Shown here: in pieces, positions 30,753-38,297 of the stretch
Numbering within the stretch: the first letter of the stretch is position 1
How the letters are laid out: every line of letters starts with the position of its first letter
Assembly (NCBI GenBank): GCA_016722945.1
Contig: JAEQMT010000037.1
Span: forward strand, 124,001-188,000
Direction of reading: 5' to 3'
From: Desulfofustis sp. PB-SRB1
GTDB lineage: Bacteria > Desulfobacterota > Desulfobulbia > Desulfobulbales > Desulfocapsaceae
DNA length: 64,000 bases
The notes under the pieces: generated by a model
The model's input: only the letters and a program-made list of their open reading frames with translations
What the model was told of the DNA's origin: nothing
Databases searched by the model: none
Translations under genes and position numbers: made by a program

Positions 30753-32555
30753 TTAGAAAAACATGTACAGTGCCGCCTGGAGCGTGAACCAGTTCTCCGC
30801 GCTTCCTCCCACTGCCTCCTCAATCGCTTCCCCCGGAATCCCGACGGAGGCAATGCCCTGGAGAAACAGGTGGGTGTTGATGTAATGAAACATGCTCAGG
30901 GTAAATTCCTGGCCGATATCCTTGGAGGCAAGGGTCTGCAGCGGTCCGATTCCACCGAGATTGTTTAATGTATCGGCCCGATGGTTGAAATAGTCCAGAG
31001 TCAATTCCAGGGTATCCAGAGGCATGATGCTGAGGGTCGCCCGGTTGGTGGTCAAATTCGAGTTTTTATATACCTTGCTGAACACGATTCCTGGTAGAAA
31101 GTTGCCCAGACCTCCTGAAAACAGGGGATCGAAGCGCTCGAAGGTTGGCGTTTCCGGATTGTCACCGGTAAATATCGACCATCGGTAGCTCAATGCAGGC
31201 TGCCAACCATATTCCTCGGCCCGATATCCGGCCCACACATATCCGGCCTGAGCCGACATGTCGAAATCCTCGTGGTTTTGATAGGCATACTCTGCCTTCA
31301 TCCACGAGCCTTTCACGTTGAACAAGTCGGTGAATGAGAGGCTTGGGTTAAAGGTACGGAGCCCCTCTCGCGGCAAGCGATCCCCACTTGGCGACCGGTA
31401 GGTGGTTTTCGATTGGGGAACATAGAAATAGCTAAAAGCCACATCCGCCCCTCGGAACGTGTTCCTGAGATCGAATCCCGCCACCTGGGTATCCGAAGCT
31501 ATCTCAGAAATTTCACTTGGTTCAATAATAAATGCATCCAGACCCAGATCAGCTGATTTGAGCTTGGCCAGCGCAGTGAACTCTGAGGTGATACGAGGCC
31601 CGAGATAGAGCGCGGCTCGCTCGCCGATCGAGGTGGAGACCGGAATCTTGGACAACAGAAAGCCGTCTCGTATCTGATAAATTTGCCGGCCGACGGAAAC
31701 ATCCAGTAAGGATTGTTCACCCGGCAAGTCCCAGATCAAACCGGCATAGAGCTTCTCAAAATCGCCATAACCCCGCGTCCCTGAATTATAGATATCGTGT
31801 CCGGCAGATCCGGAAATCAGGTAAGATACAGCACCGTAGGGATACAGCGGATAATCGGAGAGCTGAAAGATGCCGCCGATACCTGGTTCTATATAACCTT
31901 CAAGCCATGCCGATGTACCAGGTCCCAAGGGATCTTCAGCGGTGGGATTGCTACCGTTGAAGGCTTCACCATAGCCGCCGAACCATGGTTCGATATCACT
32001 GAATATGCCGGCTCCACCGTTCAGGATAAAGACGAATTTGGCGCGGTCGTCCTCATAGATCGTCGGAAACTCCCCAACATCACCGGTGGCCACTATTCCC
32101 TTGTCCTTTGGGGGTATTTTTGCTGTCTCCTTCATTGGTGATACCAGCAAAGCAAGCACCACCTCACGGCCGCCGCTCACCGTTTTATAGATCCTGAGCT
32201 CTGCCTTTTGAACCGGATCAAGCTGTTGCACCCGTTTGACGCCGAATTCAGCTAAAACCCGCCGGAAGTACGCCCCCTCCCTGAGGGTGAAGGCCGCCGC
32301 CACCTGACTTTTTAAGGTGTCGTCCTGATCCGGATCCCCGGTAGAGGACATCAAGTGGATATATACCTGACCGATCGGCAGCCCTTCCGCCAGCTCAACC
32401 TGTATTTCTACTCCCTGCCGTGCATTGTCGCCGGGTGTTTCGGCACGTAATACACCAGGCCAAACAAGCCAGATCAATAAAAATGCAGTGAGGGGACGCA
32501 CGGCAAGCCGTAGATTTGGCGCGAGGAATCTCACGCTTTGTGGTGTTTTGAGCAC
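30753..32555 (-). CDS. Outer-membrane beta-barrel protein (alginate-export/porin-like)
   Basis: A 600-aa protein with a signal peptide (LTAFLLIWLVWPGVLRAETPG, cleavage near residue 39) and a beta-rich body that ends in a C-terminal Phe (LQAALYMFF), as expected for BAM-assembled barrels. The stretch after residue 150 (KFVFILNGGAGIFSDIEPWF) and repeated amphipathic strands suggest a barrel of 16 or more strands of the alginate_exp/porin kind. It starts with GTG at 32555, only 2 bp after the stop of the split-Soret gene, so it belongs to that operon. It probably admits or exports a substrate of the redox module; the ligand is unknown. Confidence 0.72.
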   Translation of the reverse strand: MLKTPQSVRFLAPNLRLAVRPLTAFLLIWLVWPGVLRAETPGDNARQGVEIQVELAEGLPIGQVYIHLMSSTGDPDQDDTLKSQVAAAFTLREGAYFRRVLAEFGVKRVQQLDPVQKAELRIYKTVSGGREVVLALLVSPMKETAKIPPKDKGIVATGDVGEFPTIYEDDRAKFVFILNGGAGIFSDIEPWFGGYGEAFNGSNPTAEDPLGPGTSAWLEGYIEPGIGGIFQLSDYPLYPYGAVSYLISGSAGHDIYNSGTRGYGDFEKLYAGLIWDLPGEQSLLDVSVGRQIYQIRDGFLLSKIPVSTSIGERAALYLGPRITSEFTALAKLKSADLGLDAFIIEPSEISEIASDTQVAGFDLRNTFRGADVAFSYFYVPQSKTTYRSPSGDRLPREGLRTFNPSLSFTDLFNVKGSWMKAEYAYQNHEDFDMSAQAGYVWAGYRAEEYGWQPALSYRWSIFTGDNPETPTFERFDPLFSGGLGNFLPGIVFSKVYKNSNLTTNRATLSIMPLDTLELTLDYFNHRADTLNNLGGIGPLQTLASKDIGQEFTLSMFHYINTHLFLQGIASVGIPGEAIEEAVGGSAENWFTLQAALYMFF

Positions 32556-32557
32556 TG

Positions 32558-33379
32558 CTATTTGAACAGCTCCTGGTGGCAGTGTATGCAGGCCATTTTT
32601 CCCTGCTGATTATTCATGCCATCTTTGTCATGCCACATATCAGCGACGCCGTGGCAGGCCAAACATTTCGAGTTCTCTTCCGCAAATGGATAATGTCGTG
32701 GGGTATACCTGCCCTCATGATAGCGGTTGAGCATCGTTACCATCTGATAGATGGTCTCACCGGTTACCTTGGCGCACCGGTCTTTCTTTTCCTTTGAGGT
32801 AACGGTGGCGCCGGCGGCCAGAGTCCATTGGGACACGGAAATATGACACAGCGGGGTTTTCGCGTTTCGTTGCACCTGGTTCGGAAAATGGCAGATATCG
32901 TCGAATCGTTTTGTAGGGAAGTCAGTGCGGCTGTACCACTGAAACAACTCATCGATCATGTGGATGTGCGTTTGCGCCTCATCGGCGGCAACCATGCGAA
33001 AATACTGAGACGCAACTCCGAGGACACCGCAGAGTGTCCCCTGACCGCCAAAACCGGCTGATACATGACTGAACATATGATCCGGCATGGTTGTCCAGGG
33101 ATAACCGACAGATTCCTGCAACAGGCCGAGGACCCCCAGCCAGGCACCGTTGCCTCAGCCTCCGGCCTCAAGGTATATATGATATGCTCGTGTGCCCGCC
33201 TCCATGGGGTCGATGCTCGTCCACTTCCACGGCAGTGGTTGGGCGGCGGGAATTGTTTGCTTCGGAGCTTCAGAGGCATTGGCCGTGACACTGCCGAGCA
33301 CGCCGCCAGCCAGTAAAGCGGTGCTGGTTTTCAGAAACAGTCGGCGAGAATACTCGGCCAATTTTTTTCCACTACCCAT
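32558..33379 (-). CDS. Split-Soret-type dihaem cytochrome c, candidate selenoprotein (in-frame TGA)
   Basis: One continuous frame of 274 codons interrupted only by TGA at 33155-33157 (codon 75). Before it are a Tat signal (YSRRLFLKTSTALLAGG) and the sequence YHIYLEAGG. After it come GNGAWLGVLGLLQESVGYPW, GTLCGVLGVASQ, PLCHISVSQW and RCAKVTGE, and two haem sites, CLACH and CIHCH. These features match split-Soret cytochromes, whose C_GCAxxG-type fold has Cys where the TGA falls. I read the TGA as selenocysteine. The ATG at 33379 follows GGAGA. A nonsense mutation or sequencing error is the alternative. The protein is predicted to be periplasmic and redox-active, transcribed with the octahaem cytochrome. 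Confidence 0.8.
33125..33154 (-). promoter_or_regulatory. Possible bacterial SECIS hairpin after the in-frame TGA
   Basis: On the minus strand, 9 bases after the TGA, GCCTGG (33145-33140) can pair with CCTCGGC (33131-33125) around a G-rich loop CTGGGGGT (33139-33132). A stem-loop with G at the apex at about 15 bases after UGA is where bacterial SECIS elements lie. The stem is short and has a small bulge, so this is only a candidate. Confidence 0.35.
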
Positions 33380-33461
33380 TATGCAGTTCTCCTTTCTCGA
33401 ATTTCTATTTGTTAGCGGATTTTTGTTCAGTGCGTTCAACTCGATTGTGCTCGGCTGTCTC

Positions 33462-34451
33462 TCATTTCTCCCGGGCGCTTTCAAGATCGTGAGCAGATCG
33501 GTGGCAGGCAACACAAATGTCTGGATTTATCATCACATGCCGCGGATGGGGCGCCCCGTGACAGTACTGGCAGTCCACCGAGGCTGTATGCCTGTCCTGA
33601 TGGCAACGCACACAGGCAATATCGCTGTGTTTACCGCGGCTCGAGGCAAGCACGTAGGCGGCCTCCTGATGGCAGGGTAAGCAATATTCAGATGGCACAT
33701 TCCAGGTGTGGCGGACTTCAGCGGCGGTATGGGCCCGGTGACACGCACCACAGGAATCCTCATCCATCTGGTCGGAATGCGGTTCATGGCATTCCAGGCA
33801 CCCAGTGTAGAAATGCTCCTGCTCTGGTGGATGGCCGACATGGCATTCCGTGCACCCCACATTCGTGTGTCTGCCGCCTTTGGCCACCAGGTCGCTGGTC
33901 TCTTGTTTGTGACACGCTATACATTGTGTAAATTCAGCAATTGCATCCGGCTGGGTATTGACGACCCGCAGGTCCCCGTCAAACAATTTCATTTTCCTGG
34001 GTTTGAAACCGTCGTCCACCGTGACCTCATCCTTGTCATGCCCAACTCCGCCATCGACGACCGTCCAGTTCATGCCAAAAGCCGAAAAGCTCGCCGTATG
34101 ATCAATAACCCTGATGTCGGTCATCGGGTAAGGTCCGCTCGGAGGCGGCTCGTCCATCATACTGAAGCCCATGAGCCAATTGTCCACCTGCTTCTTATTG
34201 TCCACATCAACCAGGTAGTAATAGATGGCGCCTGATTCAGGTTTGTAGCCACGCTCATCGGGAGTGCCCAGAGCCGGACTCCCCTTAAATTCAAGCCAGA
34301 ACTGCACCCGATCCCTGGTGCCGTCCTTGGTGTAGTCAAATTCAATCACCTCGGTGTAAGCGATAGCGCCGCTGATCTCTTTCAGTTGAGCGGCCGCCAG
34401 CTGGCCGCAGAGCATCAACGAGATAATCGATGTCGCTAGCAAAACTCTCAT
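33462..34451 (-). CDS. Octahaem c-type cytochrome with N-terminal non-haem domain
   Basis: A 329-aa exported protein with a signal peptide (VLLATSIISLMLCGQLAAAQ). Residues about 25-180 form a haem-free domain (AIYYYLVDVDNKKQVDNWL). The rest holds eight CXXCH sites: CIACH, CTECH, CLECH, CGACH, CLPCH, CVRCH, CQYCH and CVACH. It is predicted to carry electrons in the periplasm. The ATG at 34451 overlaps the stop of the preceding 120-aa gene (TAATG), and the split-Soret gene follows after 82 bp. The partner proteins suggest that it receives electrons from the AOR/ferredoxin pair. I do not know a named family for this layout. Confidence 0.85.
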   Translation of the reverse strand: MRVLLATSIISLMLCGQLAAAQLKEISGAIAYTEVIEFDYTKDGTRDRVQFWLEFKGSPALGTPDERGYKPESGAIYYYLVDVDNKKQVDNWLMGFSMMDEPPPSGPYPMTDIRVIDHTASFSAFGMNWTVVDGGVGHDKDEVTVDDGFKPRKMKLFDGDLRVVNTQPDAIAEFTQCIACHKQETSDLVAKGGRHTNVGCTECHVGHPPEQEHFYTGCLECHEPHSDQMDEDSCGACHRAHTAAEVRHTWNVPSEYCLPCHQEAAYVLASSRGKHSDIACVRCHQDRHTASVDCQYCHGAPHPRHVMINPDICVACHRSAHDLESAREK

Positions 34452-34813
34452 TATGTGGCCTCCTTTAATACCATGCGGGCCTGGTTCAATCGATGACCCA
34501 CAAGTTCGTAGACCTTCTGGCAGCCCTCGACATAATTATTCCGTGCACTCACGACCGCCCGGATTGATTCGGCGAGTTCCGGGTCTCCGATACTTTGGGC
34601 AATCCAATTCGGCAGCGTCTGTAAATCGATGCCGGGAAGCGTCGCTTCATCCGGTTCAAGAAACAGGTGGAGCTCAACCAGACTGCGTATATCACCGCCA
34701 ATGATGCCGACGGGCGGCTTCAATCGACCCGCCGGAAAACGCTCTTTGAATGCAACCGGGGTCAGTATCTTGCGGGACAACGCCTCGCTGGGCAGGGCAA
34801 AACCATAGATCAT
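34451..34813 (-). CDS. 120-aa protein between AOR enzyme and octahaem cytochrome, unknown
   Basis: A 120-aa soluble-looking protein without signal peptide, membrane helix or cysteine motif (one Cys). Predicted helical in its C-terminal half (LAESIRAVVSARNNYVEGCQ). The start overlaps the AOR stop by 4 bp (ATGA), and the stop overlaps the cytochrome start, so it is tightly coupled to both. An assembly or cofactor-insertion role for the tungsten enzyme is possible but is inference only. Confidence 0.7.
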   Translation of the reverse strand: MIYGFALPSEALSRKILTPVAFKERFPAGRLKPPVGIIGGDIRSLVELHLFLEPDEATLPGIDLQTLPNWIAQSIGDPELAESIRAVVSARNNYVEGCQKVYELVGHRLNQARMVLKEAT

Positions 34814-36954
34814 GACGCGTCCTCCCCCAACTTGCCGGCTGCTTCGAGGGTATCCGCCACATACCCCATCTCCATCTGTTCAAGGGTGGTGCGGGTGGGC
34901 CAGCCTGTTTTACTATCCCAGCCCTCGAGCTGGTAAAAAATGCTTTTCCATTCCTCGACTTTCTCTCGATCCAGCGAACGACCCATCAAATCCTGGTAGC
35001 GCCAATTCCCGTTATCGTCTCGACAGGTCCACATGAAAAATGGAAAGATTTCGCCTTTTTTGTAAATGGTTTTGTAGATATACGGGGCGAAATGCACCAT
35101 ATCACGATGCCTTCCCTGGAGCACCCAGATCGCGTTGTCCAAATTCCAGATGCGCCGCCCGATTTCGATACCTTCCTCGAAACTGATGGCATCACCGGTC
35201 ACCGCGTTCCAGAATACCTGTTCACCGGCGTCCAGAGATCCGGTGGCACCTTCGAAATTCGACACGTTGGTGTTCACGAAATCGGGCCACTTCAAGTCAC
35301 AGAACAGCGCGGAATTCTTGTAGAATCGGCAATAATGCTGCTGCCAGCGGACCAGTTGGGCAACCGCTTCCGAATACATATTGGCGTCGCTGTAATCGAG
35401 CACCTCGGGCCGATCCTTGGCGTAGGGGGATAACTTTTTGGCATGCAGGGTTACCATTTGTTCGGCCCCAATGCGCAGTGGCTTCCCAAAAGCAAATGCC
35501 GCACTGACATTGGTAAAGATATAGTTGAAACAGTGCGTATTCGTGTCGCGGTCACCCATGAGGCTGCCGTAGCCCCATTCCAACTCTGCCCGTGGATCAT
35601 ACCCGTGCTCGGGGACACCCCAATAGGAAAACTGGAGGGCACCGGTATGAAGGTCCTCCTCACGGCCCCATTTCAATGCAGCCTGCACCCATCCCTCAGC
35701 CAAGTCAGCGCCGATGTCCGTCTTCGTCGAGAGGGCGTGAATGAGTTTTTCGGCAAAATCGAGCGTGCCAATCGACTGCCACGGCAGCTCTGAAGGGATC
35801 TGCCGGCCCGGCCCGAGAATGCCCTCTTCATAGAGGTGTTCAAGCCAGTGCAAACCGGGTTGAAGTACAAAAGAGTTAAGGCCGTATTTCTGAACGATAT
35901 CGGCCGACTTCAGGTTGATTTCGGTGTCCTCGGCAGAATTTTTTGCAATTTTACGAACGTATGGCCCATACCAGAAGGTTTCCTGGCAGGCGGACTCGTT
36001 GCCGTAGCCAATATTGTAGCGCGACCGGCAGCCGTTGATACATCCCTGGCAGGCCTGGGGGCGGCGCTCATCAGTCGGCATCGCGGTCTGGATGAGCGGT
36101 TTCGGCAAATTACCCACCCGGGTCCAGGCGTGAAAATCCGGGGTCTGCCAATTTACGACATATTTTTCCTTGGTTATCATACGGGCCCGCAGCAAGGTCT
36201 TGGGATCGTGCACTTTGATGCCGCCGGTACCGATAACGCTGATCGCTTTGAGGTTCTTCGAGCCCCAGACCGCCCCAAAGCCTCCCTGACCGGCCCCGTT
36301 TCCGGCGTCATGAATCAAGGCGGCGTGAGGTGTCTGATACTCTCCCGCAGGCCCGATACACAGAATTGCCGGTTTTTGGGTGGTCCGGTCAGATTGTTGT
36401 TCCGCGTAGCCGCGGTCATCGGCTAAGGGCAGTGCGTCGAGATTTTGCCAGTGGGCTTGCGTACCGCGTTTGATGTGAAGAAGCTTTCGGATCTCCTGCT
36501 GAGTGGCCCAGGTATCCTTTCCCCATAAATCATCGGCGGTATGGAAGAGTACCTGGTCATTGCGAATGTCAATCCAGACGGGCTCGTCTGCCGTACCCTC
36601 GATGACAATGCCATCCCATCCCGCGTATTTGAGCATGGTCGAGAAACGTCCGCCAAAATTCGAACGGGTAAACCAGGAGACAGGGTACTGGCCGACACCG
36701 ACGCCGACCACCTCACAACGGCCACCCGCCGAAGGCACGATCGTGCCGCAGAGCGGAGAGGTCATGACGCAGCAGACATTGGCCGGGTGTCTACCGTCAG
36801 TAATGGTCTTGTCGGTGCAGAAATCCCAAAAAAGCGCGGATCCCATGCCGTGACCGCCCCCCCATCTTCGATAAGGCGCGGTGTCAATCGCAACAGCTTT
36901 TCGATTGGTCATGTCCAGGCGCAGAATTTTTCCGGCGTAACCGTGATACGTCAT
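34810..36954 (-). CDS. Aldehyde:ferredoxin oxidoreductase family (tungsten/molybdenum) enzyme
   Basis: A 714-aa AOR-family protein. The N-terminal AOR domain holds SAGGRCEVVGVGVG, TRSNFGGRFSTMLKYAG, GWDGIVIEG and GAGQGGFGAVWGSKNLKA. The 4Fe-4S cysteines lie in ACQGCINGCRS (about residue 305), with a later Cys in the C-terminal region. These enzymes use a bis-pterin tungsten or molybdenum cofactor to oxidise aldehydes or related carbonyls; BamB and E. coli YdhV are relatives. The length and the neighbouring ferredoxin recall the ydh gene set. There is no signal peptide of its own, but the adjacent ferredoxin has a Tat signal. GAGGATGATAG precedes the ATG. The substrate is unknown. Confidence 0.88.
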   Translation of the reverse strand: MTYHGYAGKILRLDMTNRKAVAIDTAPYRRWGGGHGMGSALFWDFCTDKTITDGRHPANVCCVMTSPLCGTIVPSAGGRCEVVGVGVGQYPVSWFTRSNFGGRFSTMLKYAGWDGIVIEGTADEPVWIDIRNDQVLFHTADDLWGKDTWATQQEIRKLLHIKRGTQAHWQNLDALPLADDRGYAEQQSDRTTQKPAILCIGPAGEYQTPHAALIHDAGNGAGQGGFGAVWGSKNLKAISVIGTGGIKVHDPKTLLRARMITKEKYVVNWQTPDFHAWTRVGNLPKPLIQTAMPTDERRPQACQGCINGCRSRYNIGYGNESACQETFWYGPYVRKIAKNSAEDTEINLKSADIVQKYGLNSFVLQPGLHWLEHLYEEGILGPGRQIPSELPWQSIGTLDFAEKLIHALSTKTDIGADLAEGWVQAALKWGREEDLHTGALQFSYWGVPEHGYDPRAELEWGYGSLMGDRDTNTHCFNYIFTNVSAAFAFGKPLRIGAEQMVTLHAKKLSPYAKDRPEVLDYSDANMYSEAVAQLVRWQQHYCRFYKNSALFCDLKWPDFVNTNVSNFEGATGSLDAGEQVFWNAVTGDAISFEEGIEIGRRIWNLDNAIWVLQGRHRDMVHFAPYIYKTIYKKGEIFPFFMWTCRDDNGNWRYQDLMGRSLDREKVEEWKSIFYQLEGWDSKTGWPTRTTLEQMEMGYVADTLEAAGKLGEDAS

Positions 36955-36964
36955 ACTATCATCC

Positions 36965-37648
36965 TCATTTTGTGGTCATCCCGAGTTTCAACCAGGCAGA
37001 ATCTCGGAGATTGGTATTATACGATGATGGCGCTCCCTGCTCCGGCATTTCCGTGGTAAAGGTGATGGCATTCACCGGACAGACCCTGGCGCATACCTGC
37101 ACGCCACCAGGCCCGCCCTGCTCATCCAGATACGGTGTATTGGCACACAGGTCACATTTCTGAGATTTCTGCTGTAATGCATCCCACTGGATCCGGCTCG
37201 GGGTGAATGGGCAACGGGTCAGGCACTGTTTGCAGCCAATACACAGGTTCTGATCGATCATCCGCGCATAGCCCCAGTCAGGGTTCGGTTTATTGGCCCG
37301 AACCGGTCGAACCGGGCAGACGGAAACACAGGGGGCGTCCTCACACTGACGGCAGATTGCCATGAAGACATCATCGGGCCAATTGGCAAACGAATCCTGC
37401 TGAATTTGGATACGGGACAAGCTGTACGAAGCCTCTCCTGAATGCGCCAGCGCACACGCCATCATGCAAGTACCGCAGCCCTGGCATTTCTTCAGGTCAA
37501 CCAGAAGATATCCCTCCGAATCAGGCATGCTTACCGGTATGGCGAGCAGGCTGCCAGGCAAGATAAGGGCCGCCCCGGCCGCACTTGAGGTGACGAGGAA
37601 TTGTCGTCTCGTAATCCCTGAAGATTCAATATGCTTTGTGTGTTTCAT
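36965..37648 (-). CDS. Tat-exported 4Fe-4S ferredoxin-type electron-transfer subunit
   Basis: About 227 aa from ATG 37648 (GGAG upstream; a TTG at 37663 is less likely). The Tat signal is ITRRQFLVTSSAAGAALILPG. The mature part is of the HybA/DmsB/YdhX kind with four cysteine clusters: CQGCGTCMMAC, CRQCEDAPCVSVC, CIGCKQCLTRC and CDLCANTPY...CARVC, predicted to bind up to four 4Fe-4S clusters. It ends 10 bp before the AOR gene and is likely its partner. A Tat signal on the small subunit raises the possibility that the AOR enzyme is carried out with it. Confidence 0.87.
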   Translation of the reverse strand: MKHTKHIESSGITRRQFLVTSSAAGAALILPGSLLAIPVSMPDSEGYLLVDLKKCQGCGTCMMACALAHSGEASYSLSRIQIQQDSFANWPDDVFMAICRQCEDAPCVSVCPVRPVRANKPNPDWGYARMIDQNLCIGCKQCLTRCPFTPSRIQWDALQQKSQKCDLCANTPYLDEQGGPGGVQVCARVCPVNAITFTTEMPEQGAPSSYNTNLRDSAWLKLGMTTK

Positions 37649-37669
37649 GGAGACTCCGGTCAATCAAGG

Positions 37670-38197
37670 TTAGTCTGCATAGAGAAGATCTGTGATGCAG
37701 GTGCTTGTTGTAAGCAGTTCGGTAAGCAGTTTCTTATTGAAATCATCAGAAAAATGATCTCGAACAAGTGCGGTTATGGTTATTTCACCTTTTGAGCCTT
37801 TCTCCAACCAGCCCTTTTCAACCATCTTGTCAATTTTTCTCCTCACGGTTTCCCGCGGAATTCCCGTCGATTCGCTGATCGAATAGGCGTTTGTTGCCTC
37901 CTGGTGCTTAAGCCGCTCAGCAGCAGCGGGTGCATCGCCGCGTAGTTTCAGACACCCGCCTTCCAGATGATAGAACTTGCTTATGCTATGGTGTGCGATC
38001 TCACCGAGAATGATAGGGGTGATAAGATCCCCTTCAAACTTTTCATACAGCAGGAGGTGGTAGCGGAGCATGTATCGCCCCATCAATACAGCAATCGTCC
38101 GCTTATGTTTCTCATAGCGCTCCGACTCAAACAGGACGTCTTCTCGATCCTGATTATCTTCATAGCCGGGAACTGGAGTATTGGATTGGTCCTTCAT
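37670..38197 (-). CDS. Winged-helix transcriptional regulator of the redox operon
   Basis: About 175 aa from ATG 38197; the frame runs on to 38296, but the extra part is probably upstream leader. The C-terminal half has a helix-turn-helix of the winged type (AYSISESTGIPRETVRRKID, then KMVEKGWLEKGSKGEITI). The N-terminal half is helical with no recognised ligand domain. The gene is 21 bp upstream of the Tat ferredoxin gene on the same strand, so it probably controls this operon and itself. A perfect palindrome lies about 75 bp before the start. No ribosome binding site is clear. Confidence 0.7.
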   Translation of the reverse strand: MKDQSNTPVPGYEDNQDREDVLFESERYEKHKRTIAVLMGRYMLRYHLLLYEKFEGDLITPIILGEIAHHSISKFYHLEGGCLKLRGDAPAAAERLKHQEATNAYSISESTGIPRETVRRKIDKMVEKGWLEKGSKGEITITALVRDHFSDDFNKKLLTELLTTSTCITDLLYAD

Positions 38198-38270
38198 GAA
38201 CACTTTTCGGCTAGGTAACACTCTAATAATGGGAACGATAACTACATCAAATTGTCCCTTTATTCCAGTC

Positions 38271-38297
38271 CATGACTGCCCATTTTGGGCAGTCATG
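38271..38297. promoter_or_regulatory. Perfect 11-bp palindrome upstream of the regulator gene
   Basis: CATGACTGCCC at 38271-38281 and GGGCAGTCATG at 38287-38297 flank the loop ATTTT. It lies upstream of the chosen start of the winged-helix regulator, where an autoregulatory operator would be expected. It could also form an RNA hairpin in the leader. Confidence 0.6.

Follow-up and report, generated by a model that had tools for sequence, protein, structure and literature searches.

The split-Soret cytochrome c of Desulfovibrio desulfuricans ATCC 27774 has a solved structure (PDB 1h21), the entry title of which reports a novel iron centre. Expression of the split-Soret cytochrome in D. desulfuricans responds to nitrate and NO (PMC5701242), and in D. 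alaskensis the fitness of mutants in the split-Soret cytochrome was not affected (PMC4215793). What split-Soret cytochromes do in general is poorly known. Selenoproteins of the C-GCAxxG-C-C family (PF09719) have already been published in a 2026 catalogue (PMC13188914, 'form 1' and 'form 2') and a 2022 review (PMC9312934), and the available text of both also lists a few selenocysteine (Sec) cytochromes. ExtKL and the tetrathionate-reductase-family octahaem protein, as given in the available text of the catalogue, resemble the gene described here in being c-type cytochromes with a predicted Sec, but are set apart by their description there as other protein families (NF040886 and TIGR04315, respectively). 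A split-Soret cytochrome is not among the selenoproteins described in the available text of either paper (PMC13188914, PMC9312934), and a literature search found nothing linking 'selenoprotein' with 'split-Soret'.

Here a stretch of 64,000 nucleotides from Desulfofustis sp. PB-SRB1 (the window) was analysed, in which the frame of one gene is interrupted by exactly one in-frame TGA, at codon 75. From the comparisons described below, it is very probable (about 0.93) that this UGA is read as Sec in a split-Soret cytochrome. In the predicted protein a twin-arginine signal region is followed by a core of the C-GCAxxG-C-C type and, towards the C-terminus, by two haem sites. The locus carries the following features.

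32558..33379, minus strand: predicted gene of a Sec-containing split-Soret cytochrome c; 273 residues, of which number 75 is Sec; TAG stop codon; translated with TGA=U
33155..33157, minus strand: TGA codon 75, in all probability read as selenocysteine; position of the first Cys in the C-GCAxxG-C-C motif; the codon is also TGA in 12 other genomes
33124..33141, minus strand: bSECIS-type hairpin GGCUGGG-GGUC-CUCGGCC; 14-31 bases 3' of the TGA, fold of -9.7 kcal/mol
33389..33395, minus strand: ribosome-binding site AAAGGAG upstream of the ATG at 33379-33377; read directly in the sequence
33263..33379, minus strand: Tat signal region, residues 1-39, with SRRLFLKT; TIGR01409 E 0.016 and PF10518 E 0.02, both just below cut-off
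32651..32665, minus strand: first haem site CLACH, residues 239-243, from the translation; C239, C242 and H243 invariant in the 61-sequence alignment
32576..32590, minus strand: second haem site CIHCH, residues 264-268, from the translation; invariant among the eight TGA orthologues of A1

In a preliminary description of this DNA the frame on both sides of the TGA had been assigned to a single protein, and the profile matches bear this out: both the split-Soret model NF047622 (residues 11-269, E 5e-40, 137.7 bits) and PDB 1h21 (residues 49-269, E 3.2e-26, phmmer) match across the TGA. The motifs cited there were recovered as well, namely the Tat signal SRRLFLKT and LEAGG before the TGA and GNGAWLGVLGLL and the two CXXCH sites after it. 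With 137.7 bits the equivalog cut-off of NF047622 (400 bits) was not reached, and by these matches the gene product belongs to the wider split-Soret family, outside the curated equivalog. An AlphaFold2 model (pLDDT 84) was matched to 1h21 by Foldseek with an E of 1.3e-10, a probability of 1.00 and TM scores of 0.66/0.74. The likeness to the D. desulfuricans protein comprises the fold, the four cysteine positions and the two C-terminal CXXCH sites; the difference is that here Sec replaces the first of the four Cys, at 29% identity in the fold alignment. PF09719 matches with 29.5 bits against a gathering score of 27, and this match begins only downstream of Sec75, at residue 83; Sec takes the place of the first motif Cys. 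Residues 75, 117, 178 and 202 are the cysteine positions of the C-GCAxxG-C-C motif and are all Cys in 1h21. In an alignment of 61 sequences, with TGA written as C, these four columns and the first haem site were among the invariant ones, but the second haem site was not invariant family-wide. The twin arginine of the Tat signal was invariant in the eight TGA orthologues of A1.

Counting the window and 12 other genomes, 13 distinct genes that are 46-55% identical carry the TGA at this codon. Within the same taxonomic class, a search brought up seven genomes encoding a protein of 46-50% identity (local alignment), in each of which the only TGA stands at codon 75. Further TGA genes (L073, L074, L077, L091 and L104) came from a named collection of genomes and from a sample of the phylum. 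The named collection also contained eight genes with Cys at this position and 45-52% identity (L075, L076, L081, L082, L084, L086, L087 and L090), from records labelled Gammaproteobacteria, Betaproteobacteria, Steroidobacteraceae, Thermoanaerobaculales, Deltaproteobacteria and Anaeromyxobacteraceae. At position 75 all scorable homologues have either Cys or TGA; the fragment L033 does not cover it and was left unscored. This agrees with the initial claim that the family has Cys at this site, and homologues with neither Cys nor TGA, which had been named as a refuting case, were not found among those scorable. The TGA gene L077 (JAOUIN010000011.1) lies in a record labelled Betaproteobacteria, the genome of which has SelA and SelB; it may reflect genuine transfer, or the contig may have been mis-sorted.

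The host genome encodes SelA (E 2e-156), SelB (E 6e-111, over cut-off), SelD and selC, a tRNA-Sec with UCA anticodon, so that all four components for which the preliminary description had advised a search are present. SelA was found in 12 of 12 TGA genomes tested, the host included, versus 3 of 8 Cys genomes (Fisher's exact test, p about 0.004, calculated by hand). A SelB match over cut-off was obtained in 11 of 13 TGA genomes and not in G106 and G253, where incomplete assemblies plausibly account for the miss. TGA also serves neighbouring genes as an ordinary stop, and the code is therefore not simply changed. The SelD gene of the host (L043, C1:254885-255808) itself contains one in-frame TGA and probably encodes a second selenoprotein.

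Downstream of codon 75, at 33141-33124, lies a hairpin with a 7-bp stem and a GGUC loop that starts 20 nt after the UGA. According to the available text of PMC13188914, bSECIS elements have an apical loop of 3-9 nt with G in the first two loop positions, an upper stem of 4-16 bp, a distance of 16-37 nt from the UGA and a minimum free energy of at most -7.5; the hairpin of the window agrees with this model in loop, stem, distance and energy. A SECIS hairpin had been proposed before at bases 9-30 after the TGA; its presence was confirmed, but its actual position is 14-31. At these bases it is kept in 13 of 13 TGA genes, one of which (L104) has a single stem mismatch. An equally good hairpin follows 11 of the 2237 TGA triplets in the window, and a search of Rfam gave no match. 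The folding energy after the TGA was not unusual compared with dinucleotide shuffles and was for this reason not counted as evidence. By itself the hairpin is no proof; it is the conservation across 13 genes that exceeds chance.

In a codon alignment of 12 TGA genes, gene pairs sharing a residue had a codon identity of 1.00 at the hairpin codons +6 to +10 versus 0.46 elsewhere, the highest value of 200 five-codon windows. Stem cells were paired in 97.8% of cases, and in 38-71% when the partner was slid by 1-3 bases. L073, L074 and L091 have altered residues within the hairpin, and the stem is still formed. One-sided stem changes that preserve pairing are present among the TGA genes; two-sided compensatory changes were not found among them, since the hairpin hardly varies. 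In seven Cys genes codon identity at codons +4 to +11 was 0.40 versus 0.56 elsewhere, the residues are YLA/SLL instead of WLGVL, and the hairpin was not found at the corresponding position.

If codon 75 is read as Sec, SelB carrying Sec-tRNA would bind the hairpin 14-31 bases downstream, and Sec would be inserted instead of termination. Two other accounts of the TGA were weighed. A pseudogene or a faulty sequence, with the TGA as a genuine or spurious stop, is in line with the ORF being cut by TGA under table 11 and with a host assembly of 71 contigs, but the same TGA in 12 other genomes rules out the sequencing error that had been named as a refuting case, and a fresh pseudogene as well. The frame beyond the TGA is intact in 11 of these 12, at about 50% identity the TGA genes still share the haem and cysteine motifs, and the hairpin is conserved, so that a dead copy is extremely improbable. 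In the exception, the TGA form L091 (L091:1913-2634), the match passes into another frame after about residue 134; a faulty assembly or a frameshift is the probable cause.

It is also very unlikely, if slightly less so, that the codon is read through in another way, by a near-cognate tRNA or with insertion of Trp or Cys, the conserved bases then acting as a read-through enhancer and not as a SECIS. The inserted residue cannot be named from sequence data alone, which leaves room for this account; against it, the site is Cys and not Trp in all other scored homologues, SelA occurs in every TGA genome tested, and the hairpin geometry fits the bSECIS model as given in the available text of PMC13188914. 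Sequence evidence shows the Sec insertion signals, the Cys/Sec exchange, the family and the fold, and the selenoprotein reading put forward initially is upheld by those refuting tests that were run.

Within the window the gene is part of an array that resembles an operon. Upstream of it, at 34451-38296 on the minus strand, are genes for an HTH regulator, a 4Fe-4S protein with a Tat-type signal, an aldehyde:ferredoxin oxidoreductase-family enzyme and a 120-residue protein; for the latter a Pfam match was not found. Directly before the gene (33462-34451, minus strand) a 329-residue c-type cytochrome with cytochrome c3/c7-type matches is encoded, and the frame of a 600-residue Alginate_exp-like (beta-barrel) protein (30753-32555, minus strand) begins right after the stop of the split-Soret gene. 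Relatives of the eight neighbouring genes tested were not found around other copies in the fetched stretches, which covered at most about 8 kb on each side and often less. The conserved operon had been used as an argument against a pseudogene, and this argument has to be dropped, as the array was not found around the other copies. As no neighbours are shared within the fetched stretches, the surroundings of the gene do not settle its function.

Phylogenetic trees were calculated from 61 sequences and from 32 sequences, the latter built without the Sec and hairpin columns, with seven of the Cys genes included. These seven form one branch (98/94) nested within the TGA genes, and a constraint of the TGA genes to a single clade was rejected (AU p 0.0015). 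On these alignments, one Sec gain and one reversion to Cys would be the simplest reading. Three separate Sec gains without reversion are possible, but each would need to arrive at the same hairpin. According to the available text of PMC13188914, Sec-to-Cys reversion is rare, and the documented cases mainly concern FdhA and SelD.

The published C-GCAxxG-C-C selenoproteins (PF09719; PMC13188914, available text) share with the window gene the PF09719 core above cut-off. In a PF09719 search many short one-TGA genes were found in the phylum, and in 9 of the 10 short members fetched the TGA coincides with the first motif Cys, as it does in the window gene. The fetched members differ in being short, in having no haem sites and in carrying other sequences 3' of the TGA, which in L132-L135 and L137-L141 are unlike the cytochrome hairpin; the tree makes the Sec described here a separate gain within the cytochrome branch. 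In the remaining C-GCAxxG-C-C gene, L136 (G376:C30:14450-15150), the first motif position is still Cys, and 17 residues further on there is an in-frame TGA, which may encode Sec at another site or not be Sec.

With respect to function, the precursor with its twin-arginine signal probably folds in the cytoplasm and would then be exported by the Tat pathway, after which two c-type haems would be attached in the periplasm at the C-terminal CXXCH motifs. Sec75 would most likely be a ligand of, or a reactive residue at, a four-cysteine iron centre, with electrons passing between this centre and the haems. Such roles in export, metal ligation and electron transfer or reduction are extrapolated from 1h21 and the motif. 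All four cysteine positions of the predicted iron centre are present, with 75 as Sec; that Sec75 is a metal ligand would have about even odds. We tentatively propose, at somewhat less than even odds, the combined reading that Sec75 is a natural ligand of a periplasmic cytochrome iron(-sulfur) centre and that the branch records Sec-to-Cys reversion upon gene transfer into lineages several of which are without the Sec machinery.

Alternatively the protein is a selenoprotein in which Sec is not a ligand of the iron centre but a catalytic selenol that might, for instance, reduce a small molecule, a peroxide or a thiol partner. We regard this as doubtful but well worth considering: most known bacterial Sec residues are redox-active according to the available text of PMC13188914, and Sec occurs only at the first of the four Cys, here as in 9 of 10 short C-GCAxxG-C-C genes, which suggests a special role of that residue. 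The four cysteine positions are, however, invariant together, which along with the iron centre in the title of 1h21 favours a shared metal site.

The gene had initially been described as a new selenoprotein; this stands for the split-Soret branch and not for the wider C-GCAxxG-C-C family, which is covered in the available text of PMC13188914 and PMC9312934. If codon 75 is read as Sec, an apparently unlisted selenoprotein group is added, in Desulfobacterota and some other lineages. The newness is apparently confined to the split-Soret cytochrome branch and depends on whether the published 'form 2' protein, WP_012158890, which we take to be from Desulfosudis/Desulfococcus oleovorans, belongs with the short C-GCAxxG-C-C proteins or with the split-Soret cytochromes. 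The group would be a haem protein of anaerobic, sulfate-reducer-type bacteria with Sec at one of four cysteines that are invariant in the family. Where TGA is misread as a stop, annotation can easily split a gene of this kind into two fragments. The Cys branch nested among the TGA genes has the appearance of a Sec-to-Cys reversion, the type of event called rare in the available text of PMC13188914. As the predicted Sec site is common to a solved structure with a reported iron centre, the role of selenium there would be directly testable.
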